Assembly: GCF_001467895.1 (NCBI RefSeq)
Contig: NZ_LNYO01000024.1
Span: 421,102 to 485,101 of the forward strand
Source: Legionella nautarum
GTDB lineage: Bacteria; Pseudomonadota; Gammaproteobacteria; Legionellales; Legionellaceae
Length of the DNA: 64,000 nt
Direction: 5' to 3'
The notes below the pieces were generated by a model. That model saw only the letters and a program-made list of their open reading frames with translations. It was not told the origin of the DNA and ran no database searches. The translations under genes were made by a program, and so were the position numbers. Positions 17,246 through 23,413 of this stretch are shown one piece after another. The stretch's first letter is position 1. Each line of letters starts with the position of its first letter.

Positions 17246-18313
17246 TTATTGATCTAAGCGGAGGTAAGCGGCGTTCCTTTTAATAGGGACGTAGCCCTCG
17301 TCTTCAATCGCATGGCGTAACATGCTCTCGGTCGCTTTATGATTGGCGCCGGCTTGTGAAATAACATTTTCTTCAATCATAATACTACCTAAATCATTAG
17401 CACCACAGTGCAATGCTTTTTTACCTACATCTAACCCTTGCGTTAACCAAGACACTTGGGAATTAGGAATTTTTTGCAAATAAATCCTTGATAAAGCAAA
17501 CCATCGCAAATACTCTTCTGGTGGCACACGGTCTGGATAAATTTTACCAATAGCCGTATTATCAGGTTGCAAGGTCCAAGGAATAAAAGAAATAAATCCT
17601 CCTGTTTCATCTTGTAATGTAGCTAATTTTTCTAAATGGTCAATGCGATGCTCAATTTTTTCACCCATACCAAACATCATAGTTGCTGTGGTTGGTATAT
17701 TGAGTTTATGCGCAACGCGCATGACTTGTAACCATTCTTCGCCTGTACATTTACTGCGCCTTTTTTTCCTAAATTCATCAACAAGAATTTCTGCGCCTGC
17801 ACCGGGTACAGAATCAAGGCCAGCTTCTTTTAATTGGATTAAGACTTCTTCTAAGCTTAAATTGTAAATTTTCGCGAAGTTATCAATTTCTGGCGGCGAA
17901 AAACAATGTAAATGTATGCCATAACGTGATTTTAATTGCCTTAACATGTTTAAGTAATACTCAAAAGGAAGATTGGGATGCAAACCACCCTGCATTAGAA
18001 CACCACTGCCGCCTAACTCAAGCATTTCCTCTACTTTTTGGTAAATTTCTTCGTAGCTATGCACATAAGCATCTGGTGCACCAGGCTTGCGAAAAAAAGC
18101 GCAGAAGTTGCATACTGACGCACAAACGTTACTGTAATTGATATTTCTGTCTATGACATAGGTGACGACGTTATCTGGTTTATTTCGCTGACGTACTGCA
18201 TTGCCTAACTCATATAATTCTTCTGATGGCATTACTTCTATTATCTTTAAGGCTTGTTTTGGGGTTATTCTCTCCGTGTTTAAAATTTCTCCGTATAAGG
18301 ATGTTGTAGTCAT
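17246..18313 (-). CDS. mqnC: Cyclic dehypoxanthinyl futalosine synthase-like radical SAM enzyme
   Basis: A 355-aa radical SAM enzyme. MqnC closes the ring of dehypoxanthinyl futalosine in the futalosine route to menaquinone. The cluster motif is CASVCNFC (C64, C68, C71; Cx3Cx2C), preceded by VTYVIDRNINYSNVC, and LMQGGLHPNLP, FSPPEI, GLDSVPGAGAEILVD and FIPWTLQPDNT are all MqnC-like. An AGGAG ribosome site precedes ATG 18313. It diverges from mqnA across an AT-rich 345-base gap. Most legionellae are known for ubiquinone, so a futalosine-type gene here is unexpected. Confidence 0.88.
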   Translation of the reverse strand: MTTTSLYGEILNTERITPKQALKIIEVMPSEELYELGNAVRQRNKPDNVVTYVIDRNINYSNVCASVCNFCAFFRKPGAPDAYVHSYEEIYQKVEEMLELGGSGVLMQGGLHPNLPFEYYLNMLRQLKSRYGIHLHCFSPPEIDNFAKIYNLSLEEVLIQLKEAGLDSVPGAGAEILVDEFRKKRRSKCTGEEWLQVMRVAHKLNIPTTATMMFGMGEKIEHRIDHLEKLATLQDETGGFISFIPWTLQPDNTAIGKIYPDRVPPEEYLRWFALSRIYLQKIPNSQVSWLTQGLDVGKKALHCGANDLGSIMIEENVISQAGANHKATESMLRHAIEDEGYVPIKRNAAYLRLDQ

Positions 18314-18658
18314 AACTGCTCCTTACTCCTACTGCTATCAATCCATAAAAATTATAGTACATGAATATTTCATACGCGATAATTTTTATTTAATTTAGCC
18401 TTAAAGTTAACAAAAAAAAGCAAATAATAATAAGTTATTGAGCTTAATAATTCACATAAGCTCCATGTTTTTTTTCAATAAAATAAAATATATGGACTGA
18501 AGATGTTTTCCGTATTGATATTTTCAAATATTTATAAGATTAAAATCTAAGTTGTTTTTTTGAAAAATTTATCTATATTTTTAATTAATATGGTTATTAT
18601 TTTTAGCGTTACCATTTTGTGTTTTGTTGTATGGTTTTAGCTAGTTGAGGATTAGGTA
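18314..18658. other. AT-rich divergent control region of the mqn island
   Basis: 345 bases, strikingly AT-rich with A/T runs, between mqnC (minus) and mqnA (plus). The ribosome site GAGGATTAGGTAATG precedes mqnA. I see no coding frame or strong hairpin. The composition resembles horizontally acquired DNA of the kind silenced by nucleoid proteins. Confidence 0.5.
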
Positions 18659-19585
18659 ATGGCTCACAGGATTCAATCTTATAAAACAACTGAAAAATCT
18701 CATACTTTGATTGATAATTATTTAATTGATAAAGCAAAAAATAATAAAATAAATCTCGGAATAATTGACTATTTCATTAATCATCCTATCGTTGGCTTAT
18801 TATTGAAAGAAAAAAATTTACAAAAAAATTATGGAATAAAGATCATCAAAGGTGTGCCAACTCAAATTAATTCAGCACTGCTAAATGGTCGCGTCGATAT
18901 TGCAAATGTCTCAAGTTTTGCATTTGGCTGTCATTGTGATAAATGGCTCTTATTGCCAAATTTTTCGGTTTCATCATCAGGTCCTGTTCGAAGTGTATTA
19001 TTGTTTTCACATTATCATCGCTGGGATCAATTAGATGGTCGCAATATTGCCATCACTAATCAATCTGCAACATCAGTTGGCTTATTAAAGTTACTATGTC
19101 ATGAAAAATACAAAATAAACCCTCAATTTGTCGTATCAAAATCCAACCTTGATGTCATGCTTAACGAAAACAGTGCTGCTTTGATTATTGGGGACTCTGC
19201 ATTTAAAGAGGGTATCTTAAGAAGATCCTTTGGGGGGCGAACTCCCTATATGTATGATTTAGGTCAAGAATGGAACAACTGGTTACATTATCCATTTGTG
19301 TATAGTGTTTGGGCAGTGAGGCGAGAAATTGCAAAGCAGGTGATAGATTCAGAGTGTTTGTCACTGTTATATGAGTCGAAAAGCTATGGAAAAATATCAT
19401 TAGATGAATTGGCGAAATTAGAAATGCAAAAGACCAATTTACCCTACTCTGCTTGTAAAGATTATCTTAAAAACATTAGCTATGAATTAACCCTTAAGCA
19501 TCTATGTGGGTTAAAAATATTTTTAGAGTTAACTGTGGCAGGTTTTCGTTGGGAAAACATTAAATTTCTTTGCGACTCTAGCTAA
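18659..19585 (+). CDS. mqnA: Chorismate dehydratase-like protein (MqnA family)
   Basis: A 308-aa periplasmic-binding-fold enzyme. MqnA converts chorismate to 3-[(1-carboxyvinyl)oxy]benzoate. Family features are LGIIDYFINHPIVGLL (33-48), NGRVDIANVSSFAFG (76-90), SSSGPVRSVLLFS (105-117) and GRNIAITNQSATSVGLLKLL (127-146), then ALIIGDSAF. The first ~30 residues extend beyond the usual start, though a GAGG ribosome site supports ATG 18659. The two-lobed fold here is used for catalysis, not transport. It leads the operon mqnA-radical SAM-deaminase-DAHP synthase. Confidence 0.83.
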   Translation: MAHRIQSYKTTEKSHTLIDNYLIDKAKNNKINLGIIDYFINHPIVGLLLKEKNLQKNYGIKIIKGVPTQINSALLNGRVDIANVSSFAFGCHCDKWLLLPNFSVSSSGPVRSVLLFSHYHRWDQLDGRNIAITNQSATSVGLLKLLCHEKYKINPQFVVSKSNLDVMLNENSAALIIGDSAFKEGILRRSFGGRTPYMYDLGQEWNNWLHYPFVYSVWAVRREIAKQVIDSECLSLLYESKSYGKISLDELAKLEMQKTNLPYSACKDYLKNISYELTLKHLCGLKIFLELTVAGFRWENIKFLCDSS

Positions 19586-22252: not shown

Positions 22253-22321
22253 TTATCATTGGATTAGGAAGCATAACTTATTGATAGATATTGAGTAATT
22301 TTTTACTGTTGTGAGGTTTTT

Positions 22322-23413
22322 ATGAAAGAAAAAAAATATTCAAATCTGAGGATTACAAATTGCCATTCTCTCATTAGTTTTGCTACATTAATGCAGCAAC
22401 TACCACTTATGAAAAATGATGCTTATTTTATTGAAGAGATAAGACGGCAGATTAATAACATTATTCATAACAGAGATGATCGTTTAATAGCCATAGTAGG
22501 CCCTTGTTCCATTCACGATACGAACTTAGCGTTGCATTTTGCTGAATTATTAAAAAAAGCGATAGAGCGCCATAAACAAGAGTTACTTATCATCATGCGC
22601 GTGTATTTCGAAAAACCGCGAACCTCAGTTGGCTGGAAGGGTTTTATTAATGATCCTTATTTAAATGAATCTTATGCTATTAACGATGGGTTGAGGATGG
22701 CGAGAGAATTATTACTTCAAATGACTGAAATGAAAGTGCCTGCCGGGACAGAATTTCTTGATCCATTCATACATAAATATATCAGCGATTTTATAAGTTG
22801 GGGGGCAATTGGTGCAAGAACTTCAGAATCACAAATCCACCGTGCATTAGCATCCGGTTTACCAATGGCAATTGGATTTAAAAATAATACGGATGGAAAT
22901 ATACAAGTTGCTGTTAATGCTGTTTATTCAGCGAGACAAACTCATCATATTTTGGATATTAATGAAAAGGGGGAAGCGGTAATTATTGAAACAAGTGGTA
23001 ATGAAGATTCTCATGTTGTTTTACGTGGATCATACCGTGGTGCTAATTATGATGAAGACTGCGTTTTACAAACATTTAATGCAACTTCAAACAATGGATT
23101 AAGTCCTAAGTTAGTTGTTGATTGCAGCCATGGAAATTGTCAAAAAAATTATGTTAATCAGCGTATAGTTGTTGATAATATTTGTCAGCAAATTGAAAAT
23201 AATAGCCAAGGGATTGCTGGAATTATGCTGGAGAGTAATTTACTTGAAGGGAACCAACCTTTAAAAAATGTAAATGAACTTGTTTATGGAAAAAGCATTA
23301 CCGATGCTTGTATTTCGTGGGAAGAAACGGAATATTTATTGGAAAAGTTAGCAACGGCGATAAAAATAAAAAGGAATGTCCATCAAGGCCTCGTGGTTGG
23401 AGCGGAGCGCTGA
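22322..23413 (+). CDS. Type I DAHP synthase (AroF/G/H class)
   Basis: A 363-aa enzyme joining phosphoenolpyruvate and erythrose 4-phosphate, the first step to chorismate. Signature residues are present: GPCSIHD (C62), R93, EKPRTSVGWKG, GARTSESQIHRALASGL, DCSHGNCQKNY, GIMLESNLLEGNQ and GKSITDACISW. The ribosome site is GAGG. It follows the deaminase by 70 bases on the same strand, which suggests a pathway-dedicated isozyme that feeds MqnA with chorismate. Feedback specificity (Phe/Tyr/Trp) cannot be read with confidence. Confidence 0.92.
   Translation: MKEKKYSNLRITNCHSLISFATLMQQLPLMKNDAYFIEEIRRQINNIIHNRDDRLIAIVGPCSIHDTNLALHFAELLKKAIERHKQELLIIMRVYFEKPRTSVGWKGFINDPYLNESYAINDGLRMARELLLQMTEMKVPAGTEFLDPFIHKYISDFISWGAIGARTSESQIHRALASGLPMAIGFKNNTDGNIQVAVNAVYSARQTHHILDINEKGEAVIIETSGNEDSHVVLRGSYRGANYDEDCVLQTFNATSNNGLSPKLVVDCSHGNCQKNYVNQRIVVDNICQQIENNSQGIAGIMLESNLLEGNQPLKNVNELVYGKSITDACISWEETEYLLEKLATAIKIKRNVHQGLVVGAER

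Follow-up and report, generated by a model that had tools for sequence, protein, structure and literature searches.

The window analysed here, a stretch of 64,000 nucleotides from the genome of Legionella nautarum (contig NZ_LNYO01000024.1, positions 421,102 to 485,101), contains an island of five genes related to the futalosine pathway, in which a variant radical S-adenosylmethionine (SAM) gene, hereafter vRSAM, takes the position of the aminofutalosine synthase MqnE. An initial annotation, made from the sequence alone, had called mqnC, mqnA, a radical SAM gene, a deaminase and a 3-deoxy-7-phosphoheptulonate (DAHP) synthase. All five are open reading frames at the coordinates listed below, and matches to family profiles and Protein Data Bank (PDB) chains agreed with these calls.

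17246..18313, minus strand: mqnC, MqnC-type radical SAM gene (cyclic dehypoxanthinyl futalosine synthase family; TIGR03699), divergent from the operon
18314..18658, no strand: AT-rich spacer between the divergent mqnC and mqnA (22.9% GC), likely promoter-bearing
18659..19585, plus strand: mqnA, MqnA-type chorismate dehydratase (PF02621; PDB chorismate dehydratases)
19660..20967, plus strand: vRSAM, proposed substitute aminofutalosine synthase (NF045502; Cys165-x8-Cys174-x2-Cys177)
20942..22252, plus strand: aminofutalosine-deaminase-like amidohydrolase (best NCBIfam model, PDB matches, HxH motif)
22322..23413, plus strand: DAHP synthase, feeding the route to chorismate (PF00793 and TIGR00034, both over the cut-off)
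23410..23434, plus strand: terminator-like hairpin with T-rich tail, end of the operon (hairpin scan, weak)

Proteins encoded by the island

The vRSAM protein belongs to the NCBIfam family NF045502 ('variant_rSAM'; 179 bits, cut-off 125), as did six of six relatives scanned, but this is a domain model without a named reaction. No Pfam family was matched at E 0.01, and the score against the MSMEG_0568-family radical SAM model (TIGR04043) was far under its cut-off (31.3 vs. 303.7 bits). The cysteines C165, C174 and C177 form a Cx8CxxC motif that was invariant in an alignment of 56 rows, from which gene copies of overlapping loci were excluded. MqnE, also a radical SAM enzyme and the one whose substrate and product are proposed here for vRSAM, has CxxxCxxC instead; vRSAM lacks that motif and gave no match to the MqnE model (TIGR03700). 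Profile comparison with hhalign, using a shallow MqnE alignment of nine actinobacterial rows, returned a probability of 0.4% over only nine columns, at the CxxC, and the possibility that vRSAM is a divergent MqnE was rejected on this basis.

The remaining proteins were assigned with the same kinds of evidence. MqnC exceeded the cut-off of TIGR03699 (446.5 vs. 428.1 bits) and carries CxxxCxxC at residue 64. In a quick, midpoint-rooted tree of MqnC and MqnE it fell, on a long branch, among the MqnC rows, and a reading as a changed CofH or MqnE was rejected on this placement. Its closest rows were those of two Planctomycetota genomes (G187 and G188, the genomes of loci L078 and L079), the MqnC of the latter being 60% identical; mqnC may therefore have an origin separate from the rest of the cassette. 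MqnA matched PF02621 (192.3 bits, cut-off 26) and no NCBIfam model at E 0.01. Its nearest solved chains were 2i6e (labelled hypothetical, 3e-30) and 6o9a (chorismate dehydratase, 3.5e-30), so that chorismate dehydratases are its nearest named solved relatives; a reading of this gene as MqnD was rejected, as no MqnD-named chain occurred among its 10 PDB matches. For the deaminase, the best NCBIfam model was the aminofutalosine deaminase family hydrolase (PRK08418 model; 194.9 bits, below the cut-off of 320). Its best PDB chains were DR_0824 (2imr, 8.9e-45), which we take to be a tested aminofutalosine deaminase, and 7lkj, named aminofutalosine deaminase (2.7e-25), and an HxH motif is present at residue 80. 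The DAHP synthase scored 449.6 bits with TIGR00034 (cut-off 173.2).

The plus-strand genes, as listed, have gaps of 74 bases between mqnA and vRSAM and 69 between the deaminase and DAHP synthase genes, and an overlap of 26 bases between vRSAM and the deaminase gene. The low GC content of the spacer, compared to 40.4% for the whole window, bears out the AT-rich divergent region of the initial annotation. Promoters are likely located there; a promoter scan performed no better than shuffles. The terminator scan returned two sites vs. a shuffle mean of 5.2, which makes the hairpin at 23410–23434 weak evidence for the operon end. A gene adjoining the cluster scored as Legionella LapA in NCBIfam (673.4 bits, cut-off 600), and a small protein directly next to mqnC (16849–17196) gave a sub-threshold match to antibiotic biosynthesis monooxygenase (19.2 of 23.1 bits).

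Missing pathway steps and the sister cluster in Legionellaceae

Searches for the missing steps covered the whole host genome (3.65 Mb, 99.98% complete) and extended to it the observation, first made within the window, that MqnE, MqnB and MqnD are not recognisable. The sole match to the MqnE model was the mqnC gene itself, under the cut-off (294.7 vs. 434.55 bits), and the presence of MqnE was thus rejected. The MqnB model (TIGR03664) gave no matches, and no enzyme for base removal before MqnC was found by this search. In control genomes the same model gave matches in 11 of 14, including E. coli and B. subtilis, and exceeded the cut-off in two only. These control matches presumably come from related nucleosidases, so that the host seems to lack a close MTAN-like enzyme as well, MTAN's own model not having been searched. 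PF02621 was matched once, by mqnA; since this protein resembles chorismate dehydratases, no MqnD was seen. MenA is a member of the UbiA family, and the host's three UbiA-family proteins exceeded the cut-offs for heme o synthase, 4-hydroxybenzoate octaprenyltransferase and decaprenyl-phosphate phosphoribosyltransferase, respectively. No menaquinone-type member was found among them (best MqnP-model score 83.9 of 420 bits; classical men models not searched), which agrees with the earlier description of a ubiquinone-type host. Of the complete futalosine menaquinone pathway, therefore, MqnE, MqnB, an MqnD beside the MqnA and a menaquinone-type prenyltransferase were not found.

Among 143 Legionellaceae genomes, vRSAM was present in two and PF02621 in the same two, which is consistent with the island nature proposed at the outset. 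The sister cluster (locus L002) lies in a metagenome-assembled genome of Legionella sp. (G143; G075 has its PF02621 match on the same contig at identical coordinates) and has the same order of mqnA, vRSAM, deaminase and DAHP synthase genes. The four plus-strand proteins share 59–81% identity between the two clusters, while 66–73% of the compared fourfold sites differ; codon positions 1 and 2 are conserved with fourfold sites near saturation. This retention of protein identity despite divergence at fourfold sites indicates that the four genes are under selection rather than conserved by chance. It also makes it very improbable that the cluster is a decaying remnant with no present product, an explanation to which its rarity in Legionellaceae and the failure to find downstream genes would lend some weight: all frames are open, and the metal- and cluster-binding motifs examined are present.

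No further gene called in the 21 kb of L002 matched the 64 kb window, indicating that the cassette lies at a different genomic place in the two genomes. The L002 genome also gave no TIGR03699 match, which makes mqnC dispensable for the core cassette. The inclusion of mqnC in one cluster, as first described, thus holds for the window, where the gene is present and divergent, and not as a fixed feature. The sister cluster is flanked on one side by an RND efflux set that diverges from mqnA (L002:2943-8595) and by a methyltransferase gene followed by EmrB and EmrA genes on the other (L002:13788-18016). The efflux flanks and the missing mqnC suit a specialised metabolite.

In the vRSAM tree, the two Legionellaceae sequences were sister to four Ktedonobacterales rows (support 98/88), within a nine-row group that also included three Acidobacteriota rows (100/100). 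Because of this position beside Ktedonobacterales (Chloroflexota), whose vRSAM is the nearest, the cassette was probably transferred into Legionellaceae.

We favour, with moderate confidence, the interpretation that the cassette forms a futalosine-type product by way of vRSAM in the MqnE position and that, with no MqnB, MqnD or menaquinone-type prenyltransferase found, a specialised metabolite is a likelier product than menaquinone. The initial annotation had left the choice between a variant menaquinone route and a chorismate-nucleoside product, of which the nucleoside product now fits better and the menaquinone variant less so. A menaquinone route in which MqnB, MqnD and MqnP are replaced by other enzymes would account for the presence of MqnC, and a substitute protein in place of MqnD has been proposed in the literature (PMC4746308). 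We regard such a route as improbable here, given that the host had no MqnB match, a single PF02621 match and no menaquinone-type UbiA member, that the L002 genome had no MqnC match, and that 141 of the 143 Legionellaceae genomes were without PF02621.

Distribution of the vRSAM family

The radical SAM gene, introduced as novel in the initial annotation, is not unique to this genome. A family search of the genome collection yielded 140 confirmed stretches, the best 80 of which were analysed together with the window (81 loci), and vRSAM is a broad family that accompanies futalosine genes in several phyla. Co-occurrence was assessed in 47 vRSAM genomes, corresponding to 47 of the 80 loci, hand-picked for taxonomic spread. 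PF02621 was present in 45 of these, and TIGR03699 was matched in 45 at E values up to 0.001 and over the cut-off in 33. The two genomes without PF02621 (G158 and G176) carried MqnC over the cut-off, and PF02621 or MqnC over the cut-off thus occurred in 47/47. MqnE over the cut-off was found in nine, whose vRSAM loci bear the titles Actinoplanes, Paractinoplanes, Streptomyces and Kitasatospora.

Among the matches examined, no MqnE-side protein with CxxxCxxC was present in 37 of the 47 genomes, in which draft assemblies may hide genes. The tree of MqnC and MqnE, with 30 MqnC and nine MqnE rows, also placed part of the weak matches, as 18 additional sequences; five grouped with CofH-like rows and thirteen on the MqnC side. 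Outside the nine MqnE genomes, MqnE-side frames were found in seven. That of G175 (L242) joined MqnE in the tree and has CxxxCxxC; the other six, from two phyla, lack this motif (G166, G168, G172, G186, G147 and G173; frames among L236–L240 and L268). In the first four of these the frame matches the MqnE ends and lies on the mqnC contig, approximately 25–47 kb away; three of the four belong to Micromonosporaceae, a family whose Actinoplanes group has retained a complete MqnE. The frames of the Acidobacteriota G147 (L240) and G173 (L268) have long branches and lie on contigs other than that of mqnC. A fragmentary sequence of G162 (L241), with equal scores for both probes, was kept outside this count. 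None of the six frames contains a stop, and they could be decaying relics or pseudoenzymes kept to work beside vRSAM. Another acidobacterial genome (G149) carries two divergent MqnC-side radical SAM genes (L247 and L248, about 205 bits each against the window MqnC).

Gene order around vRSAM was variable. Over the 81 loci its neighbours included mqnA in eight, mqnC in five and a deaminase gene in three, and no widely shared neighbour gene was found. The eight loci with adjacent mqnA were the window, L002, five from Ktedonobacteria and one from Acidobacteriota; in L065 the contig ends within the vRSAM-adjacent mqnA. In L003, L004, L005 and L007 mqnC lies 3' of vRSAM, followed in L003 by the deaminase gene, and L009 ends inside vRSAM. 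A TetR gene occurred at position −2 in five Ktedonobacteria loci, and one cluster of small genes was found near vRSAM in 12 of the 81 loci at varied offsets. Ten further neighbours and the genes of Streptomyces plasmids had no evident link. Two such plasmids carry vRSAM (L266, NZ_CP108387.1; L267, NZ_CP108083.1), and no mqn gene is annotated in the plasmid stretches examined. In two Ktedonobacteria operons, a gene for an F420-type PPOX oxidoreductase lies between vRSAM and mqnC (L003:11205-11747 and L005:4344-4934).

Co-occurrence was also approached from the MqnE and MqnC side, in 394 Actinomycetes genomes. MqnE exceeded the cut-off in 74, and at least four (G172, G256, G335 and G510) had MqnC without MqnE over the cut-off among the matches listed (to about 323 bits). 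For these four, a set centred on G172, the presence of vRSAM was predicted in advance. It was found in three (556.9, 579 and 586 bits); as the vRSAM of G172 was known beforehand, two of the three open cases held. The vRSAM search gave a match of any kind in 65 Actinomycetes genomes, 31 of them above 500 bits and the other 34 with best matches of at most 51 bits. Cross-tabulation by hand identified 30 of the 31 as futalosine genomes, a count to which, owing to shared ancestry, no simple significance value applies.

Taken across phyla, these patterns led us to a wider and more tentative proposal, which we hold to be plausible without being the likelier outcome: that vRSAM is a second, independently evolved aminofutalosine synthase standing in for MqnE in several phyla, and that the Legionellaceae cassette turns futalosine into a specialised metabolite. 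Several observations weigh against a role of vRSAM as aminofutalosine synthase, in this proposal as in the preferred interpretation. Since similarity between the vRSAM and MqnE profiles is limited to nine columns, the vRSAM sequence names no reaction, and the deaminase did not reach its curated cut-off. No adjacent mqnA was found in 73 of the 81 loci, some of which are at contig ends, and the MqnE-like frames that lack CxxxCxxC could encode proteins kept for a different role rather than being products of decay. In Actinomycetes, the advance prediction failed in G335, which had only a 21.5-bit vRSAM match. A second prediction, that genomes without MqnC would have no vRSAM, was broken by G572, which has vRSAM with no MqnE over the cut-off (best TIGR03700 match 7.4e-81) and no MqnC among the matches listed; in the 19 kb around its vRSAM (L265) neither an mqn gene nor a counterpart of any of the other four window proteins was seen. 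In this class MqnE over the cut-off accompanies vRSAM in 27 of the 31 genomes, so vRSAM is no simple MqnE replacement there; of the remainder, three have MqnC only, and G572 neither among the matches listed.

The tree offers a partial account of this coexistence. Streptomycetaceae rows were nested within Micromonosporaceae rows, with modest support at the forks (91/89 and 88/79), and we therefore read the joint presence of vRSAM and MqnE in Streptomyces as a late gain of vRSAM by bacteria already holding MqnE. The Actinoplanes group, which also has both genes, is outside the reach of this reading.

The same observations bear on another explanation, in which vRSAM converts 3-enolpyruvylbenzoate or a related compound to a product other than aminofutalosine, the deaminase uses that or another nucleoside, and a new branch departs from MqnA. 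The dissimilarity of vRSAM to MqnE, its coexistence with MqnE in those 27 actinomycete genomes and the sub-threshold score of the deaminase would all be expected under such a branch. We consider it rather unlikely, since no MqnE over the cut-off was found in 38 of the 47 vRSAM genomes, while MqnC exceeded the cut-off in 33 and PF02621 was present in 45; where MqnC and PF02621 occur without MqnE, some source of aminofutalosine is needed.

Proposed pathway and its meaning

The reactions of MqnA, MqnE and the deaminase are established for those families. MqnE normally makes aminofutalosine, MqnC normally acts after removal of the base, and futalosine is normally an intermediate, a building block of vitamin K2 (menaquinone). 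Under the preferred interpretation of a futalosine-type product made via vRSAM, DAHP synthase would raise the supply of chorismate through the shikimate route, and MqnA would dehydrate chorismate to 3-enolpyruvylbenzoate. vRSAM would then add the 5'-deoxyadenosyl radical of SAM to 3-enolpyruvylbenzoate, yielding aminofutalosine, and the deaminase would convert its adenine to hypoxanthine, giving futalosine. In this species, cyclisation of a later intermediate may fall to the divergent MqnC. We infer all of these reactions, foremost that of vRSAM, as well as the nature of the product; the role given to vRSAM rests on its distribution and gene order. Cyclisation is the least certain step, because mqnC is no fixed part of the cluster.

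The cluster resembles the futalosine menaquinone pathway in its MqnA, MqnC and aminofutalosine-deaminase-like enzyme and in starting from chorismate and SAM. It differs in having vRSAM in the MqnE position and a dedicated DAHP synthase, in a host without recognisable MqnE, MqnB, MqnD or menaquinone-type prenyltransferase. Streptomyces caniferus offers a precedent in its PM100117/PM100118 cluster, in which dedicated mqn-type genes are reported to serve a natural product and not menaquinone (PMC4763440). That cluster, as described there, has homologues of MqnE and MqnD (gonM3 and gonM4) and a polyketide system, whereas MqnE and MqnD were not found here. In Ktedonobacteria, the same genes would serve menaquinone. 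MK9-H2 is reported for 10 of 11 species of this group, counted irrespective of vRSAM (PMC13386864). A literature search whose coverage excluded most subscription journals brought up neither a report of an aminofutalosine synthase other than MqnE nor one of futalosine in Legionella.

If vRSAM is an aminofutalosine synthase, it would fill the missing step in the MqnE-less genomes of Acidobacteriota, Planctomycetota, Chloroflexota, Myxococcota and Micromonosporaceae examined here and would constitute a second solution to the chemistry of adenosyl-radical addition. This would bear on the prediction of quinones from genomes and on MqnE as a drug target. A ubiquinone bacterium with a futalosine-type compound as end product would add a new kind of metabolite to those known from this route.

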